64,000 bases of DNA, from NCBI RefSeq assembly GCF_000025625.1, contig NC_013923.1:186001-250000 (forward strand). Reading direction: 5' to 3'. The stretch comes from Natrialba magadii ATCC 43099. GTDB lineage: Archaea; Halobacteriota; Halobacteria; Halobacteriales; Natrialbaceae. Numbering within the stretch: position 1 is the first letter of the stretch; every line of letters begins with the position of its first letter. A program made the translations under genes and the position numbers. A model generated the notes under the pieces. That model was not told the origin of the DNA, searched no databases, and saw only the letters and a list, made by a program, of their open reading frames with translations. This document shows positions 8,204 through 21,047 of this stretch, in pieces.

Positions 8204-8455
8204 TCAACGGTGACGCGACGCGTCCGTTTTGGGATCGAACTCGAGTGCCTGTTCGTGAATCGACGGGCCGTCCTCGTCGGCAGGGTGCCAGTTGTTGCCA
8301 TCGCTGTCCAGTAACTGTGTTTCCGCACAGTGGAGACATCGGAGCGGGTAGACCGATGTCTCACTCGTGACGACGACCTCGTGGTTCCAGGGGTGGTGCC
8401 AGTTGTGTCCGTACAGGCGACATTGCCAGGTGCCGCTCACGTATCCGAGTACCAT
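8204..8455 (-). CDS. small zinc-ribbon-like protein, function unknown
   Basis: An 83-residue protein with CRLYGHNWHHP at residues 12-22 and CLHC at about residues 40-43, so a Cys, one or more His and a Cys pair could bind one zinc ion. The pattern resembles the short phage and archaeal DUF1660-type proteins (C-x3-GHxW followed by CxxC). The rest is acidic and His-rich. It lies between the TnpB element and the E1-like gene, all on the minus strand, about 250 bp downstream of the E1-like stop codon. It may be part of the TnpB element's baggage, or an independent host gene. Function is not predictable. Confidence 0.6.
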   Translation of the reverse strand: MVLGYVSGTWQCRLYGHNWHHPWNHEVVVTSETSVYPLRCLHCAETQLLDSDGNNWHPADEDGPSIHEQALEFDPKTDASRHR

Positions 8456-13925: not shown

Positions 13926-14070
13926 ACGTGGGGGTGGCTACAGCGTCGGTGACTATGATAGTATGGCTGGTCCTGAAGAGTCCGCTCGTTGATTGACGGG
14001 TCGCGTCGCTCACCGGCCGACGTGGGAGCGGACTGTACCTACTTGTGGGCGAACGTGGTAGGAGGCCCCG

Positions 14071-15318
14071 ATGTACAACACAATTCTCGTACCGACCGAC
14101 GGGAGTCCGGTAGCGGAAGATGTCGGAACGTACGCAATCGGACTCGCAGAGCGATTCGACGCGGCGATACACGTCGTCTCCGTCCTCGAGGGAGGGCTCG
14201 TCGCCAGCGGTGACGAAGACGAGGGTGAACGAGCGGTTGAGGAACTGGCCGATCGCGCACGGGATCGCGGCCTCGACGTGACGACCGAACTCCGCGAGCA
14301 GGCGGATGCGGTTCACGAAGAGATCCTCGCAGCGGCCGACGAACGCGACGCGGACCTGATCGCGATGGGGACGACCGGCCGCAGCGGAGTCGGCAGATTC
14401 CTGCTTGGCAGCGTCGCCGAACAGACGCTACGGGAGTCGTCAGTCCCGGTCGCGACCGTCCACGAAGAGACGGCACTCGAAGGCGCGTTCGAGCGCGTCC
14501 TGGTTCCGACTGACGGAAGCCACAGCTCGGAGGCCGCCCTCGAGCACGCCATCGATCTCGCGGCCGAAACCGGCGCGCGGCTGCACATCGTCCACGTGAG
14601 CGACGAGGAGGCCGTCGAAGAGATGGAGACGTTCGACGTTGCGGATACTACTGCGGCTAGTGACGACGACGAGATCGGTCTCGAACCGGTCGACGACGCG
14701 CTCGAGTACCTGCGCGGGACGCAACTGGACGTCGTCGACATATCGATTCCGAGCGGGCGAGTCGACCAGCAAATCCTCGCGACTGCCGCAACGTCCGATG
14801 CCGACTGCATCGTGATGGGAACGCACGGCGAGACTGGACTGCGGCGCTACCTCCTCGGAAGTACGACCGAACGCGTCGTCCGTTTCACCGGCGTGCCGGT
14901 GATCGGCATCAGCGCGACGCGCGCCGAAGCCGTGACCGTCGAGTATCTCGATTACCAGGTCGTCGACGAACGGGGCTGGTCACTCGAGGACGAGGACCTC
15001 CTCGAGCGGGCCGCGGAAGGCGACCTCGACGACGAGGCTCACGGCACGTTCGAGGTGGGACGCGACGAGTACGTCCTCGACGCCGCCGAGGCGGCCGGCC
15101 ACAGTTGGCCGTTTCACTGTCGGGCCGGCGGCTGTGTGAACTGTACTGCCGTGTTGCTCGAGGGGGAACTCGAGATGGACGTCCAGCGAAGTCTTTCGGA
15201 GGAGGAAGTCGAAGAAAAGGGGTTCCGGTTGACTTGTGTAGCCACGCCAGCAAGCGATTCGATCGAACTCGTCTATGGGGCGAAGCATCTCGACGAGCTT
15301 CGTGATCGCGTCGTATAG
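14071..15318 (+). CDS. fusion of two Usp domains with a halobacterial-type [2Fe-2S] ferredoxin
   Basis: A 415-residue cytoplasmic protein in one uninterrupted frame. Residues 1-132 and 141-282 are Usp domains with nucleotide loops GTTGRSGVGRFLLGS and GTHGETGLRRYLLGS. Residues 286-415 are a complete plant-type ferredoxin with the acidic halobacterial insert (LDYQVVDERGWSLEDEDL), iron ligands C350, C355, C358 and C389 (C-x4-C-x2-C then C), and the family ending AKHLDELRDRVV. The join lacks any start-like or stop codon, so this is a genuine fusion and not two genes. The next gene, 73 bp on, encodes an MsrQ-like heme membrane protein, a plausible electron-transfer partner. The function is inferred: nucleotide- or stress-gated one-electron carrier. 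Confidence 0.9.
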   Translation: MYNTILVPTDGSPVAEDVGTYAIGLAERFDAAIHVVSVLEGGLVASGDEDEGERAVEELADRARDRGLDVTTELREQADAVHEEILAAADERDADLIAMGTTGRSGVGRFLLGSVAEQTLRESSVPVATVHEETALEGAFERVLVPTDGSHSSEAALEHAIDLAAETGARLHIVHVSDEEAVEEMETFDVADTTAASDDDEIGLEPVDDALEYLRGTQLDVVDISIPSGRVDQQILATAATSDADCIVMGTHGETGLRRYLLGSTTERVVRFTGVPVIGISATRAEAVTVEYLDYQVVDERGWSLEDEDLLERAAEGDLDDEAHGTFEVGRDEYVLDAAEAAGHSWPFHCRAGGCVNCTAVLLEGELEMDVQRSLSEEEVEEKGFRLTCVATPASDSIELVYGAKHLDELRDRVV

Positions 15319-15391
15319 GAGTCCTACCGGGAATAGCTTTATTTGAGCGATCGGTGTTCATCTGGTCACAATCGAGTGACACGACGATACC

Positions 15392-16042
15392 ATGACGGCA
15401 GACACCAACAACGAGCTCACCCATCATCTGGGCGTAGCGATCGGAAGCATCGTCGTCGCAGTCCTGCTGTGGGTCGTCGGATACGGGGAGCAGCGGGTCG
15501 TCGGCGCCATTCCCTTCTTCATCCTGTTTTTCGTGATGGTTATCGGCCCACTGGTTCGCATCCGGCCGTCGATCAGGCGTCGGTTCTCCGGGAACTTCCC
15601 CGTGAACTGGCGGTCGGAACTGGGGATCTGGTTCGCCATCTGGTCGGTCGTCCACGTCCTGTTCGTCTTCTGGGCACGGGACTGGGACGTCGTCGGCTAT
15701 CTCGTCGACATGAGTCCGTGGGCGTTCGGGGCCATGGTTGCCGTCCTCATCGCGATCGTGCTGGCGTTTACCTCCAACAACTGGGCCTACGACTATCTCG
15801 GTGCAAAAGCGTGGAAGTGGCACCAGAGCCACGGGACGTACGTCATCTTCTGGCTCGTGGCCGTCCACGGCTACGATCGAGCGTATCTCCGTCCGTACGA
15901 AGAGATGGGCTTTCCCTCGGACGACCCGCTCCACCTGATTTACCTCGCAATGATCGTCCTGGTGGTCATCCTCCACGTGGTCGCGTTCGCGGCTGTCGTC
16001 TCCGAGTATCGGAAGAGTGGCGAGTATCCACCCGATCTCTAG
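15392..16042 (+). CDS. ferric-reductase-like (MsrQ-type) heme membrane protein
   Basis: A 216-residue membrane protein with about six helices. The core resembles the ferric-reductase-like domain: H88 in one helix, and WKWHQSHGTYVIFWLVAVH placing H147 and H159 one helical run apart, as heme-b ligands do in MsrQ and YedZ. The family passes electrons from a soluble donor through heme to an extracytoplasmic acceptor. The gene directly follows the Usp-ferredoxin fusion, whose iron-sulfur domain could be that donor (inference). Its stop codon shares the bases CTAG at 16039-16042 with the stop of the convergent ClC gene. No NAD- or FAD-binding domain is attached. Confidence 0.78.
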   Translation: MTADTNNELTHHLGVAIGSIVVAVLLWVVGYGEQRVVGAIPFFILFFVMVIGPLVRIRPSIRRRFSGNFPVNWRSELGIWFAIWSVVHVLFVFWARDWDVVGYLVDMSPWAFGAMVAVLIAIVLAFTSNNWAYDYLGAKAWKWHQSHGTYVIFWLVAVHGYDRAYLRPYEEMGFPSDDPLHLIYLAMIVLVVILHVVAFAAVVSEYRKSGEYPPDL

Positions 16043-17409
16043 AACAGCCGTCTCGAGTCGACCTCGACGCCCCGCTCGAGCAACCCGATCGTGTAGATGC
16101 TCCCCTCGCTCGCGTGTCGCGACAGTGCCGCGCTGACGAGACAAGCGATCGCGAGCGGCGGGACGATCCAGACGTCGCCGGTCAACTCGTAGACGACGAC
16201 GATCGCCGTCAGTGGCGCCTGTGACGCCCCGGCGAAGACTGCACCCATACCGACGGCAGCGTACGTCGTCGGATCGGCGACGGGCACGGGGACCACCTCG
16301 TCCAGTAACGTACCGTAGACGGTGCCGGTCATCGCGCCGACGTAGAGTGCGGGAGCGAAGATGCCGCCGGAACCGCCGCTCCCGAGCGTGAGGCTCGTCG
16401 CGACAATCTTCGCGACTCCGAACGCGAGGACGGCCTCGAGGGCGAACCCGCCGACGAGCGCGTCCTGGATCACCGGGTAGCCGACGCCGTAGACCTGCGG
16501 AATCGAGAGCGCGAGAACGCCGAGACAGAGTCCTCCCAGCGCCGGCTTCAGGTCGGTAGGAACGGGGAGCCGCTCGAACCCGTGCTCGACGGCGTAGAGA
16601 GAGTTGGCGAAGGCGAGCGCCACGGCCGCGCACACGACGCCGAGGCCGACGTACGCGGCGCCCTCCCAGGGGCTCTCCACGGCGATCCCCGGAACCGAGA
16701 AGATCGGATCCGGGAGCCCAACGACGACGTTCGCCGTCGCGGTCCCGACCACAGCGGCGATCGCGATCGGTGGGACGTTCTCCCTCGTGACGCGCCCGAG
16801 CAAGACTTCCCAGGCGAAGATCATCCCGCCGATCGGGGCGTTGAACGTCCCGCCCAGCCCCGCTCCGGCCCCCGCTGCTAGTAACACCGACGTCTGGGGG
16901 TCAGGCAGGTCGATGCGGTTGCCGACGGCTGCACCGACCGTGCCGCCGATCTGGACGATCGGTCCCTCGCGACCGGTCGCGCCGCCGGACCCGATACAGA
17001 CTGCCGACGCGACTGCCTTCGCCGGAACGATGCGCAGGGGGAGCCGTCCGCGCTTCCGGTCGATCGCCTCGATCACCTCCGGTACCCCCTCGCCCCTCAC
17101 CAGGCCACCGCCGCTGTAGCTGGCTATCAGCCCGACGAACGCGCCGCCGATGGCGGGTGCGAGGACGCGATAGTACCACGGGAGGTCGACGGCTCGCTCG
17201 AGCAGCGCCGCCTGCGACGTCGCCCCGGAGAAAAACAGCGCGGTGAACCCGATCAGCAGGTACTGGAAGGCGACGGCGCCGAGCCCGCCGGCGATCCCGA
17301 CGACGATGCCGAGGACGAACAGTCGGCCACGAAACGACGTCTCGGTCCCCTCGACGAGGCGGAGGCCGACGGAGGAGAGGACGTCGGAGAGGATACGGAT
17401 CGGGGACAT
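16039..17409 (-). CDS. ClC-family anion channel or transporter
   Basis: A 456-residue membrane protein of the ClC family, moving Cl- or another anion. Family motifs are GREGPIVQIG, carrying the gating glutamate, and GSGGSGGIFAPALYVGA. The first anion-coordinating loop, GSGIP in classical ClC proteins, reads GEGVP, so an acidic residue replaces the serine; other prokaryotic branches also vary here. No CBS domains follow, unlike many archaeal relatives. The start at 17409 (MSPIRILSD) is preferred over the one at 17427. It is convergent with the MsrQ-like gene. Confidence 0.9.
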   Translation of the reverse strand: MSPIRILSDVLSSVGLRLVEGTETSFRGRLFVLGIVVGIAGGLGAVAFQYLLIGFTALFFSGATSQAALLERAVDLPWYYRVLAPAIGGAFVGLIASYSGGGLVRGEGVPEVIEAIDRKRGRLPLRIVPAKAVASAVCIGSGGATGREGPIVQIGGTVGAAVGNRIDLPDPQTSVLLAAGAGAGLGGTFNAPIGGMIFAWEVLLGRVTRENVPPIAIAAVVGTATANVVVGLPDPIFSVPGIAVESPWEGAAYVGLGVVCAAVALAFANSLYAVEHGFERLPVPTDLKPALGGLCLGVLALSIPQVYGVGYPVIQDALVGGFALEAVLAFGVAKIVATSLTLGSGGSGGIFAPALYVGAMTGTVYGTLLDEVVPVPVADPTTYAAVGMGAVFAGASQAPLTAIVVVYELTGDVWIVPPLAIACLVSAALSRHASEGSIYTIGLLERGVEVDSRRLF

Positions 17410-17743
17410 ACTGACGCGGCGACGCACTGGGATCTGCGGCCGCGGAACCCGTTACACCGACTGCGGGAATGAAACCCGAACCTACACTCGCCGTCGAATG
17501 ACGTTCGCCCGAGTCGATCGGTTTCGGACGCCGTCGGATCAGTCGACGTGACTTTGCCCTCGTGTCAACACATGTTCACTGTCCAGTCGGTGGAACCTGC
17601 CGTATGTCCAGCGAAACGTACGGTGTCGAGATAGACGAGGACGTAGCGACGTTCTTCGAGGCGGGGAAATCGGGTGTCGCTCTCGACCTCCGTCGTGTGT
17701 ATCGGTTCGCGACGGCTGACTATCAGGTGGGTATCCCGACCGG
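17410..17743. other. 334-bp gap between the ClC gene and the P-type ATPase gene
   Basis: Both flanking genes are on the minus strand. A weak plus-strand frame (ATG at 17604) overlaps the ATPase tail and was not accepted. No repeat or hairpin stands out. Confidence 0.6.
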
Positions 17744-20548
17744 TCAGTACCGTTCGAAGTACCGATCCTGGACCTTCACGAAGACGGCCATCAGCAGTGC
17801 GAAGACGACCGCGGCGACGCCGATCTGGACCCAGTGAACGAACGCGAGCGGTTCGACGTCGAACAGGAACTGTCCGGTCGGCGTGTAGAGGACGAGCAAC
17901 TGGAGCGTGACGGCGACGGCCACCGCGATCACGAGCCAGCGATTCGTGAAGAGGCCGAGTCCGTACCGGTAGCGGATCGCCTGAATACGGACGATCTCGA
18001 AGACGACGAATCCGGTGAACACCATGGTCTGTGCGAGTTCCCTGCCCGGTTCGTAGCCGGGGCTCCACCCGAAGAGCGCCCCCATCACGTCGTAGCCCGG
18101 GATCAGCTCGCCGAAAAAGTTGAGGGTGAACAGCGGGAGCAGGCAAACCGTCATGAAGATGGCGATGCCGACGATCGACGTGACGATCCGATTCGTGATG
18201 ACGCCCTCGTCCGGCGGTCTCGGATCTCTGTCCATGATGTCTTTTGCGGGCGGATCGACGCCCATCGAGAGGGCCGGAATGCCGTCGGTAACGACGTTGA
18301 TGAACAGGATCTGGATCGGCGTAATGACGAGCCCGAATCCCAACATCGAGCCGGTAAAGACCATCGTGACCTCGCCGCCGTTGCCCGACAGCAGGTAGTT
18401 GACGAACTTTCGGACGTTGTCGAAGATACGCCGGCCGCCCTTGACCGCATCCCGAATGGTCGCAAAGTTGTCGTCTAACAGGACGATATCGGAGGCCTGT
18501 TCGGTGACATCGGTCCCACGGATCCCCATTGCGACGCCGACGTCAGCGTTTTTCACGGCCGGTGCGTCGTTGACCCCGTCGCCAGTCATCGCAACCGTGT
18601 GTCCCATTGCCTGCAGCGTCTGCAAGATTCGGGTCTTGTGGTCCGGCGACGTTCGCGCGAAGATGTCGACATCCTCGACAACGTCTGCGAGTTCGTCATC
18701 GGACATCTCCTCGAGTTCGGGTCCCGTGATCACCGTCGTCGAGCGGAGACCGACATCCTCGCCGACCGCTCGCGCCGTCACTGCGTTGTCGCCGGTTATC
18801 ATCACCACGTTGATCCCGGCGTCGAGACTGGCTGCTAGCGCGTCGGTGACTTCAGGTCGAGGCGGATCGAGCATCCCCTGCAGTCCCAGAAAGACCATGT
18901 TTCGCTCGAGGTCCTCACCCGGTTCGTCGACCTGATCGTCTGGCACGTCGGGGCGGTAGGCAAAGCCCATCACGCGCAGTGCGTCCTCCGCGAAGTCTTC
19001 GTTCTGCGCCTCGATCGCTTCGCGACGTTCGTCCGTAAGGTCGACGAGTTCGCCGTCGACGAGTTCTCGATCGCAACGCTCGAGGACGGTCTCGGGTGCG
19101 CCCTTCATGTAGGCGACGGGGTCGCCGTCGGGCGTCTCGTGGACAGTGGTCATCCGTTTGCGCGCGGATGTGAACTCGATCTCACTGAGACGGGGGTACG
19201 CTGCGGTGAGCTCCTCGTGGTCGAAGTCGGCCTTCTGGGCGGCGACGAACAGCGCGATTTCGGTGGGATCACCGAGGTAGGTCCGTTCCTGCTCACCCGA
19301 TTCGGTGGCTTCAGCCTCGTCTTCGTCGCGTTCTCGGGTTCCCACGTCGACGTTGTTACACAGCATGCCACAGCGCAGCACGTCGGCGACCCGCTCCTCG
19401 CCAACCGACTCGTCGTCCTGCAGGAACTCCCCGTCGGTATCGTAGCCGGTCCCGGTCACCTCGTAGACCTCGCGATTGGCGCTGATCCGCTGGACGGTCA
19501 TTTCCTCCTCCGTGAGTGTTCCCGTCTTGTCTGTACAGATGACGTCGACCGAGCCGAGCGCCTCGACGATCGGTAGCCGCCGTACGAGGGCGTTCTGATC
19601 GGCCATCCGGCGAGCGCCGAGTGCGAGTGAGAGCGTAACGACTGCGGGCAACCCCTCTGGAACCGCGGAGACGGCGATACCGACCGCCGTCAGGAACACC
19701 TGCAGCGGCGCTGTTTCCCCCACGACGAGTTCGGCGATTGCGATCACCGCGACCGCGAAGATGACGACGCCGGCGATGATCTTCCCCAGGCGGTCCATCT
19801 CGGCCTGGAACGGCGTCTCCCGATCTTCGGCTTCTCCGAGAGCCGTCGCGATCTGGCCGATCTCGGACTCCGGACCGGTCTCGACGACGACCGCCATTCC
19901 GGAACCGCGCTCGACGACGGTATCCTTGAACAGCATGTTCTCACGCTCGGCGAGCGCGACATCCTCCTCGACCGTTCCGACCTCCTTGGAGACGCCGACG
20001 CTCTCCCCAGTCAGAGCCGCCTCGTCGACGCTGAGGTTCGACTCTTCGATGAGCCGTGCGTCGGCAGGGACGGCGTCGCCCGACTCGACGAAGAGTACAT
20101 CTCCGGGGACGACGTTGGTGGTGTCAATCTCCCGTTTCTCCCCGTCGCGTCTGACCAGCGCGTACGTCGTCGACATCTCCTTTAGCGCCTGGATACTCTG
20201 TTCGGCCCGATAGTCCTGGACGAAGCCGAACAGCGTGATGAAAACCACGATTCCCGCGATGACGGCCGCGTCGATCGTGTGTCCGACGCCTGCCATCACG
20301 AGGGCGGCGACGATCAGCACCCAGATCAGCGCCGACGAGTACTGTTCGATGAGAATTCGTAACGGCGACGTTCCCGCTTCGGCCTCAACCTCGTTCGGCC
20401 CGTAGCGCTCGAGTCGCTCACGGGCTTGCGAAGATACCAGTCCTCCCTCGGATGTCTCTCGCTCCGCGTAGACATCCTCGAGTGGCTTCGAGTGCCAGTC
20501 GCTGCCAGCGCCGGGTTCGATTCGCTCGTCGTATTCTGACCGTGACAT
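17744..20548 (-). CDS. P-type ATPase, Ca2+ (SERCA-like, P2A) type
   Basis: A 934-residue ATP-driven cation pump in the cytoplasmic membrane. Domains in order: cation-transporter N-terminal domain (about 15-75), actuator with TGES (180-183), PEGLP in helix M4 (297-301), phosphorylation site DKTGT with D340, nucleotide-binding domain, hinge GDGVNDAPA, and a C-terminal helix bundle. Residues that form SERCA Ca2+ site II appear conserved: Glu in PEGLP, Asn and Glu in LLSGNGGE, and Asn/Asp in NVVTDGIPA. This favours Ca2+ over Na+/K+, though related pumps of this group can export Na+. The start at 20548 skips an eight-residue extension from 20572. It is probably monocistronic. Confidence 0.92.
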   Translation of the reverse strand: MSRSEYDERIEPGAGSDWHSKPLEDVYAERETSEGGLVSSQARERLERYGPNEVEAEAGTSPLRILIEQYSSALIWVLIVAALVMAGVGHTIDAAVIAGIVVFITLFGFVQDYRAEQSIQALKEMSTTYALVRRDGEKREIDTTNVVPGDVLFVESGDAVPADARLIEESNLSVDEAALTGESVGVSKEVGTVEEDVALAERENMLFKDTVVERGSGMAVVVETGPESEIGQIATALGEAEDRETPFQAEMDRLGKIIAGVVIFAVAVIAIAELVVGETAPLQVFLTAVGIAVSAVPEGLPAVVTLSLALGARRMADQNALVRRLPIVEALGSVDVICTDKTGTLTEEEMTVQRISANREVYEVTGTGYDTDGEFLQDDESVGEERVADVLRCGMLCNNVDVGTRERDEDEAEATESGEQERTYLGDPTEIALFVAAQKADFDHEELTAAYPRLSEIEFTSARKRMTTVHETPDGDPVAYMKGAPETVLERCDRELVDGELVDLTDERREAIEAQNEDFAEDALRVMGFAYRPDVPDDQVDEPGEDLERNMVFLGLQGMLDPPRPEVTDALAASLDAGINVVMITGDNAVTARAVGEDVGLRSTTVITGPELEEMSDDELADVVEDVDIFARTSPDHKTRILQTLQAMGHTVAMTGDGVNDAPAVKNADVGVAMGIRGTDVTEQASDIVLLDDNFATIRDAVKGGRRIFDNVRKFVNYLLSGNGGEVTMVFTGSMLGFGLVITPIQILFINVVTDGIPALSMGVDPPAKDIMDRDPRPPDEGVITNRIVTSIVGIAIFMTVCLLPLFTLNFFGELIPGYDVMGALFGWSPGYEPGRELAQTMVFTGFVVFEIVRIQAIRYRYGLGLFTNRWLVIAVAVAVTLQLLVLYTPTGQFLFDVEPLAFVHWVQIGVAAVVFALLMAVFVKVQDRYFERY

Positions 20549-21047
20549 GGATCTGTTGTTACCGATACTCACTCCGCTTTCGCAGTTGGTCTCGATCCCT
20601 CACGAGATGGACTGTCGGTCGTCACGCCGACAAGTCGCCCGTTGCAGCAAGTCTGTCCACTGCGTGTCGACTCGAGTACCCCGCGTAGTGAGCCTGGTTG
20701 CCAGACCGGTCGTCGATTCCGACAGCGCACAGGTCGTCACAACTGGGATGCGACACCGATGTGTTCACCGAGAGTGTGGGTATGGCCGCTCCGAGGTGTG
20801 CAGAGAGTAGCGACCAGAACCGATGATCAAATTCCGTGCTGGTGATACCAGCAATCCGAACGGTCATGTGAGGGGTCCTACGACGATTTGCCATTTAATA
20901 CACCCACTAACCTCTACGGTTACTGACCTCTCACGGCCCGGGTGGTGGTACCGGTACCGCCGAACCGAGACTCGGTGTGTGGGACAGAAACCGAGACTCG
21001 ACGCGCGTACAGGTTCCGTTTCGCCAGCTGCCGGCGGGTGGCTTTAT
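20549..21047. other. gap upstream of the P-type ATPase and Usp genes, no credible gene
   Basis: The divergent intergenic region is 636 bp from start codon to start codon. A 90-codon minus-strand frame at 20622-20894 has a non-halophilic composition and was rejected. The right end of the gap is occupied by the MITE-like element at 21048-21153. Confidence 0.6.

Follow-up and report, generated by a model that had tools for sequence, protein, structure and literature searches.

A STEAP-like membrane protein encoded beside a Usp–ferredoxin fusion in Natrialba magadii: a candidate transmembrane electron conduit

Genes and features of the locus

The window analyzed here, a stretch of 64,000 nt from Natrialba magadii ATCC 43099 (NC_013923.1, positions 186,001 to 250,000), almost certainly belongs to the small chromosome pNMAG01. 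On its forward strand, separated by 73 intergenic bases (15319–15391), lie the gene for a fusion of two Usp domains with a [2Fe-2S] ferredoxin and that for a membrane protein, hereafter MEM (Table 1). Gene order and both proteins were confirmed as originally predicted, with the Usp–ferredoxin gene directly before the membrane gene; position 15319, given at first as the start of the membrane gene feature, is merely the base that follows the stop codon of the fusion. Around the pair extends a stress-type island (4783–32401), in which several additional Usp genes are accompanied by genes for a Ca2+-type P-ATPase, a CLC channel, a PAC2 protein and an enzyme resembling E1 (UbaA/MoeB type). The window also has a gene for an 83-aa protein (8204–8455, minus strand) that contains paired Cys and paired His residues and belongs to no Pfam family; it recurs in 10 loci of this neighborhood, often just before the Usp–ferredoxin gene. 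In the genome paper, as far as its text was available for searching (PMC3403918), neither ‘ferredoxin’ nor ‘ferric’ occurs.

Table 1. Positions of genes, domains, codons and conserved elements in the window. Neighbor counts refer to 38 loci left after removal of 4 duplicates from 42; other overlaps may remain among them, and L095 and L105 are absent from them as ORFs.
Feature	Position	Strand	Basis
MEM, putative single-heme, six-helix membrane protein of FRD/STEAP type, 216 aa	15392..16042 (ATG at 15392, stop ends at 16042)	+	ORF, conservation, model, STEAP/NOX fold
Usp–Usp–[2Fe-2S] ferredoxin fusion, 415 aa, proposed electron donor	14071..15318	+	ORF, domain profile matches
Ferredoxin domain of the fusion, residues 289–415	14935..15315	+	Full-length relative of Halobacterium ferredoxin 1e0z
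ATP motif G2XG9XG(S/T) of Usp domain 1	14368..14412	+	Motif match
ATP motif G2XG9XG(S/T) of Usp domain 2	14818..14862	+	Motif match
Codon R74, start of TM3, invariant; site of the first heme His in NOX	15611..15613	+	Alignment; signature in excerpt of PMC3591440
Codon H88, TM3, proposed outer-heme ligand, invariant (24/24)	15653..15655	+	Alignment; aligns with TM3 His of E. coli MsrQ
Codon Q145, TM5, invariant (24/24)	15824..15826	+	Alignment; signature in excerpt of PMC3591440
Codon H159, TM5, proposed outer-heme ligand, invariant (24/24)	15866..15868	+	Alignment
Codon H12, invariant, presumed cytosolic end of TM1	15425..15427	+	Alignment
TATA-like conserved element upstream of MEM (TTTATTTGAGCGATCGGTGTTCAT), probable own promoter	15338..15361	+	Conservation; single site in window
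Conserved element upstream of the Usp–ferredoxin gene (CTACTTGTGGGCGAACGTGGTAGG)	14039..14062	+	Conservation
CLC-type chloride channel, convergent neighbor (context)	16039..17427	-	Profile match; ≤5 kb in 6 of 38 loci
P-type ATPase nearest Ca2+ types, recurrent neighbor (context)	17744..20572	-	Profile match; ≤5 kb in 15 of 38 loci

The Usp part of the fusion matched PF00582 with 192 bits, and both copies of G2XG9XG(S/T), the ATP motif of ATP-binding Usp proteins, are intact. Its ferredoxin domain is of the halophile type: it passed the NCBIfam model NF041393 (198.9 bits; cut-off, 150), retains CX4CX2C as well as the fourth cysteine (in RLTC), and aligns with residues 2–128 of the 128 in the solved Halobacterium ferredoxin 1e0z, from which it differs in being fused behind two Usp domains. 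The neighbor of MEM thus supplies a soluble one-electron carrier, as had been supposed. The domain is strongly acidic (33 D+E vs. 10 K+R), and a standalone ferredoxin copy is present elsewhere in the N. magadii genome. In a plasmid record of Natronococcus occultus, the fusion is named ‘ferredoxin Fer’ and MEM ‘hypothetical protein’, names that hide the pair; the public annotation of L162:4947–6176, which likewise uses ‘ferredoxin Fer’ for the fusion, obscures its stress domains. The literature searched, mostly by listing, yielded no paper on a Usp–ferredoxin fusion or an archaeal STEAP-like protein; a study of composite genes names a Usp fusion to MnhE, its excerpted text being free of the word ‘ferredoxin’ (PMC5992828).

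Fold and conserved residues of MEM

AlphaFold, given an alignment of 24 MEM relatives, returned a heme-free model of moderate confidence (pLDDT 76.8, pTM 0.72) with six long helices and no extra domain, bearing out the view of a membrane protein devoid of a soluble redox domain. When the model was compared to solved structures with VIA-align, a method in which helical bundles can reach Z-scores of ~13 without kinship, STEAP proteins lay above this line (STEAP2 7tai and STEAP1 8ucd, 15.5; STEAP4 6hcy, 15.0), NOX proteins near it (NOX5, 13.3; SpNOX, 12.3) and cytochrome b561 lower, at 9.6. The matches to STEAP1/2 and NOX5 span residues 8–215, in agreement with a six-helix FRD fold. Foldseek gave no PDB match for the model at E ≤ 0.001 (best, 3.1e-3), with STEAP and NOX structures ranking first. 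By sequence, no solved relative of MEM emerged, a PDB search returning designed repeat proteins only. MEM itself scored 20.3 bits (E = 6e-4) against Ferric_reduct (PF01794), below the cut-off of 28, and a whole-genome Pfam search reported nothing at E ≤ 0.01; its distant relative L105 passed the PF01794 model with 42.1 bits.

Six residues (H12, R74, H88, K142, Q145 and H159) are invariant in all 24 aligned MEM sequences, followed by H144 (23/24) and by H147 and H195 (19/24 each). Four of the invariant residues form two evenly spaced pairs, R74-x13-H88 and Q145-x13-H159. According to the excerpted text of PMC3591440, the mark of YedZ and STEAP proteins is that TM3 has an Arg instead of its first heme His, that TM5 has a Gln, and that mainly the surface-proximal His pair is retained; R74, Q145, H88 and H159 reproduce this signature in 24 of 24 sequences. 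On the strength of that signature and the modeled fold, MEM is best read as a member of the single-heme YedZ/STEAP group of the FRD superfamily, with heme binding as a predicted property. In the same source, as far as excerpted, archaeal members of the superfamily are held to be few and of bacterial origin.

The original prediction also had histidines placed like b-heme ligands, which fits H88 (TM3) and H159 (TM5); H147 and H195 were dropped as ligands because these positions vary. H12 and H144 together might hold an inner cofactor or form a docking site. Loop 55–75 carries on average 4.6 K+R vs. 0.1 D+E (23 of the 24 rows, with L105 left out), and these positive charges put the loop inside, so that H88 and H159 presumably lie toward the outer ends of TM3 and TM5.

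Of the earlier label, an MsrQ-like heme membrane protein, the ferric-reductase superfamily fold stood, whereas the MsrQ identity did not, the protein being nearer to the single-heme YedZ/STEAP group. Bacterial MsrQ/YedZ shares superfamily and signature with MEM, which differs in that H147, beside the inner TM5 position, is not conserved. The two are distant homologs (hhalign against E. coli MsrQ: 27% identity over 131 columns, E = 7.6e-5), which would be in keeping with a true MsrQ-like role, namely feeding the repair of oxidized methionine outside the cell. Such a role is nonetheless extremely improbable. MEM reached 24.4 bits on the MsrQ model NF003831, far below the cut-off of 130, which was exceeded in none of 41 genomes (its own and those of relatives). 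Moreover, no gene for the MsrP partner lies nearby: the only PF00174 (Oxidored_molyb) match of the genome is a protein on another replicon (C1) that scored 59 bits, compared to the MsrP cut-off of 207, and has no Tat signal by eye. For these reasons, we ruled out MEM as an MsrQ proper and abandoned oxidized methionine as the acceptor, one of two suggested at the outset. A NOX identity was likewise rejected, as R74 and Q145 sit at the inner pair, so that the four heme histidines are not complete, and as the 216 aa represent the membrane part alone, without a fused FAD/NADPH domain.

Two observations concern the wider family. A plasmid-encoded protein of Alkalihalophilus pseudofirmus OF4 (L161:5962–7233) is clearly, if distantly, related (hhalign E = 4e-25); it is extended by ~180 aa at its C-terminus and has an Arg aligned with the H159 position. 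It has no Pfam match, and no redox domain was recognized in its extension. In Natronococcus sp. A-GB1, a MEM gene (L039:5001–5647, identical with L083:9001–9647) is apparently broken near residue 175; further MEM fragments lie on the contig of the broken gene in genome G364, and two other MEM copies there look intact.

Gene linkage and upstream elements

MEM homologs (E ≤ 1e-5) were found in 31 of 391 Halobacteria genomes, 29 of them close and two distant (G338 and G368; 35–37 bits), the latter being excluded from the set of close MEM genomes. The full Usp–ferredoxin fusion, defined as a match at E ≤ 1e-60 that reaches the ferredoxin end, occurred in 22 of the 391 genomes, a definition that left out 13 of 35 genomes with Usp-only matches. 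All but one of the 22 fusion genomes also carry MEM (Fisher p = 3e-27, a value that ignores kinship), the exception being G344. Of the 21 genomes that carry both genes, 20 have them within ~2 kb of each other, confirming across Halobacteria the adjacency seen in N. magadii; in G029, both are present but unlinked. The 21 linked loci comprise 13 with co-directional genes (in G131 with a gene between) and eight with divergent genes (G253, G247, G165, G045, G098, G308, G159 and C7 of G364), all adjacency counts having been read by hand from match coordinates. A stronger argument than the Fisher value is that the genes stay linked across a change in their orientation. The linkage of MEM and the fusion is thus real and has been kept by evolution.

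This bears on the possibility that MEM and the Usp–ferredoxin are unrelated genes that share nothing but their place on a stress island. MEM has other genes of the island as recurrent neighbors too, and pNMAG01 is rich in Usp genes, with 18 given in the available text of the genome paper (PMC3403918), both of which would fit such hitch-hiking. However, the Usp–ferredoxin is single-copy in most genomes and yet stays close to MEM in nearly all that have both, and the pair is kept in two orientations and across genera while other neighbors change. Hitch-hiking is therefore improbable.

Upstream sequences did not bear out a single operon. A TTTAT element ~55 bases before the MEM ATG, followed by GATCG(G/A)TG, is kept in all 18 close-clade upstream regions, also in L038 and L077, where the next upstream gene is not the fusion. 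A different conserved element precedes the fusion start in the 21 close rows compared. A shared operator for both genes was considered; the two elements differ, each having one exact site in the window. An operon as the general state was rejected on account of the separate elements and the eight divergent loci. Two promoters are likely in the window, given the separate conserved elements, and read-through is possible. The core of the fusion element has 21 sites in the genome vs. 17 for a reversed-pattern control, and as it is not enriched, no regulon is claimed.

Ferredoxin partners and a candidate electron route

A second kind of partner was found in a sister clade. In L096, L098 and L102, MEM is immediately preceded, on the same strand and at a distance of ~10 to 50 bases, by the gene for a lipoprotein ferredoxin of ~155 aa. 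This protein combines a plant-type [2Fe-2S] domain with a twin-arginine and with a lipobox recognized by eye (AGC or SGC); the representative in L098 scored 58.9 bits against PF00111, with the Pfam TAT model below cut-off. The arrangement recurs in a Halobacteriales MAG (L042), whose MEM is 44% identical, and the lipoprotein gene lies within 5 kb of MEM in L100 and L104 and ~10 kb away in G082. MEMs paired in this way fall in one clade of 10 rows (support 98/81, from a bootstrap that had not settled), of which three (L097, L099 and L103) have no lipoprotein ferredoxin neighbor. The close lipoprotein ferredoxin family is present in 13 of 391 genomes, 12 of them with MEM, at E ≤ 1e-40, a cut chosen after viewing the matches in 168 genomes at E ≤ 1e-12. 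Outside the clade, the lipoprotein ferredoxin is a lone gene in the five other stretches read where it was called, several of them from MEM genomes, and in L106 and L107 it lies near a second-type Usp–ferredoxin. N. magadii has no match at E ≤ 1e-12. Both pairs, MEM with Usp–ferredoxin and MEM with lipoprotein ferredoxin, occur in G131 and G364, and four of the 29 MEM genomes (G118, G282, G285 and G361) lack the fusion as well as the close lipoprotein ferredoxin. With the lipoprotein ferredoxin gene lying directly ahead of MEM in the sister clade, the partner of the family would be either a Usp-fused ferredoxin inside the cell or a lipid-anchored one outside.

We favor, with slightly better than even confidence, the view that MEM conducts electrons across the membrane by way of a single heme, in the manner of YedZ/STEAP proteins, and is fed by the Usp–ferredoxin. 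The acidic ferredoxin domain would dock at the basic cytosolic face of MEM and pass one electron at a time, perhaps via a flavin at the site of the NOX inner heme, whereupon the outer heme, with H88 and H159 as its ligands, would hand electrons to an acceptor outside the cytoplasm. Judging by redox potentials, the flow from ferredoxin to b-heme would be expected to run downhill. If MEM had no inner cofactor, the step from a low-potential ferredoxin straight to a lone outer heme would be a long one; STEAP4 binds FAD at the NOX inner-heme site, according to the excerpted text of PMC10659578. The Usp domains may adjust the electron supply in response to ATP or stress.

As to the acceptor, the lipid-anchored exported ferredoxin would take this part in the sister clade, and Fe(III) is our best guess for N. 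magadii, being compatible with the STEAP precedent. Among the annotated genes next to MEM, a minority of its neighbors, no iron transporter was identified. The named MEM carriers are largely soda-lake organisms or soda-lake MAGs, in whose habitat iron should be hard to get; one of them, Natronococcus occultus, comes from Magadi. More tentatively, and in our view doubtful as a whole, the family might act as a plasma-membrane reductase that operates a stress-gated ferredoxin-to-ferredoxin relay, from the Usp–ferredoxin via the STEAP-like MEM to a lipid-anchored ferredoxin (or metal) outside, which the poor solubility of Fe(III) in soda lakes would favor in the haloarchaea living there.

Electrons might instead stay within the membrane, with MEM serving as a ferredoxin:quinone oxidoreductase that delivers them from the Usp–ferredoxin to the menaquinone pool. 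According to the available part of PMC8238504, MsrQ is the subunit that binds quinone in its own system, and no gene for an outside acceptor was recognized beside MEM in N. magadii. Two points nevertheless make this reading unlikely: the invariant His pair presumably sits toward the outer ends of TM3 and TM5, and the sister clade pairs with an exported ferredoxin. Decidedly unlikely, too, is a redox-sensing pair, in which the heme protein would sense oxygen or redox state and recruit or release a Usp–ferredoxin acting mainly as a stress regulator: the intact ATP motifs of both Usp domains and the Usp-rich neighborhood agree with sensing, but a full-length ferredoxin domain that keeps all four cysteines, and a sister clade whose exported ferredoxin has no Usp, do not.

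Under the favored conduit reading, MEM and the Usp–ferredoxin would be an archaeal counterpart of STEAP1 and its soluble reductase, with an iron–sulfur donor. Like STEAP1–4, the single-heme metalloreductases of animals, MEM has six helices, a predicted single outer heme held by TM3/TM5 histidines and, at the inner position of TM3, Arg instead of His; like STEAP1 in particular, it is without an oxidoreductase domain of its own, STEAP1 being reduced by a separate soluble reductase (excerpt of PMC10659578). It differs in being archaeal, in its low identity to STEAP1–4 (13–17%) and in its proposed donor, a Usp-fused ferredoxin rather than an NADPH/FAD domain. MsrQ-like flavinylation systems similarly wire a PF01794 membrane protein to an extracytosolic redox protein; there, as described in the excerpted text of PMC8238504, the outer carrier is FMN-binding and goes with ApbE, whereas in MEM, and only in its sister clade, it would be a lipoprotein [2Fe-2S] ferredoxin. 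The fold is already known. For an archaeal, putatively single-heme branch tied to either the Usp–ferredoxin fusion or the lipoprotein ferredoxin, the second of these partners being new with this analysis, no precedent came up in the literature searched.

For a type of protein whose electron partners are often unknown, the MEM family provides a specific donor that can be put to the test and, for one of its clades, a similarly testable acceptor, and a Usp protein gains a possible redox output. The pair may offer a membrane outlet for low-potential ferredoxin electrons, whose reoxidation in haloarchaea is, to our knowledge, not fully settled, and it suggests a stress-linked wire that moves electrons across the cell membrane of a salt- and alkali-loving archaeon.

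Other Usp–ferredoxin copies, 55–60% identical, directly precede a 70–73-aa two-helix protein with conserved His (c36; L106:8658–8879, L107:7570–7782 and L109:7674–7886). It weakly resembles DUF4079, PepSY_TM and cytochrome b561 models, all below cut-off, and is possibly an alternative membrane partner of the Usp–ferredoxin. A 72-aa gene beside the G029 fusion (L108) was ruled out as c36-type, having no His. In two small neighborhoods (G216 and G371), c36 relatives follow a nitroreductase-like gene. As a side lead, c36 occurs in seven of the 391 genomes, in three of them beside the fusion.
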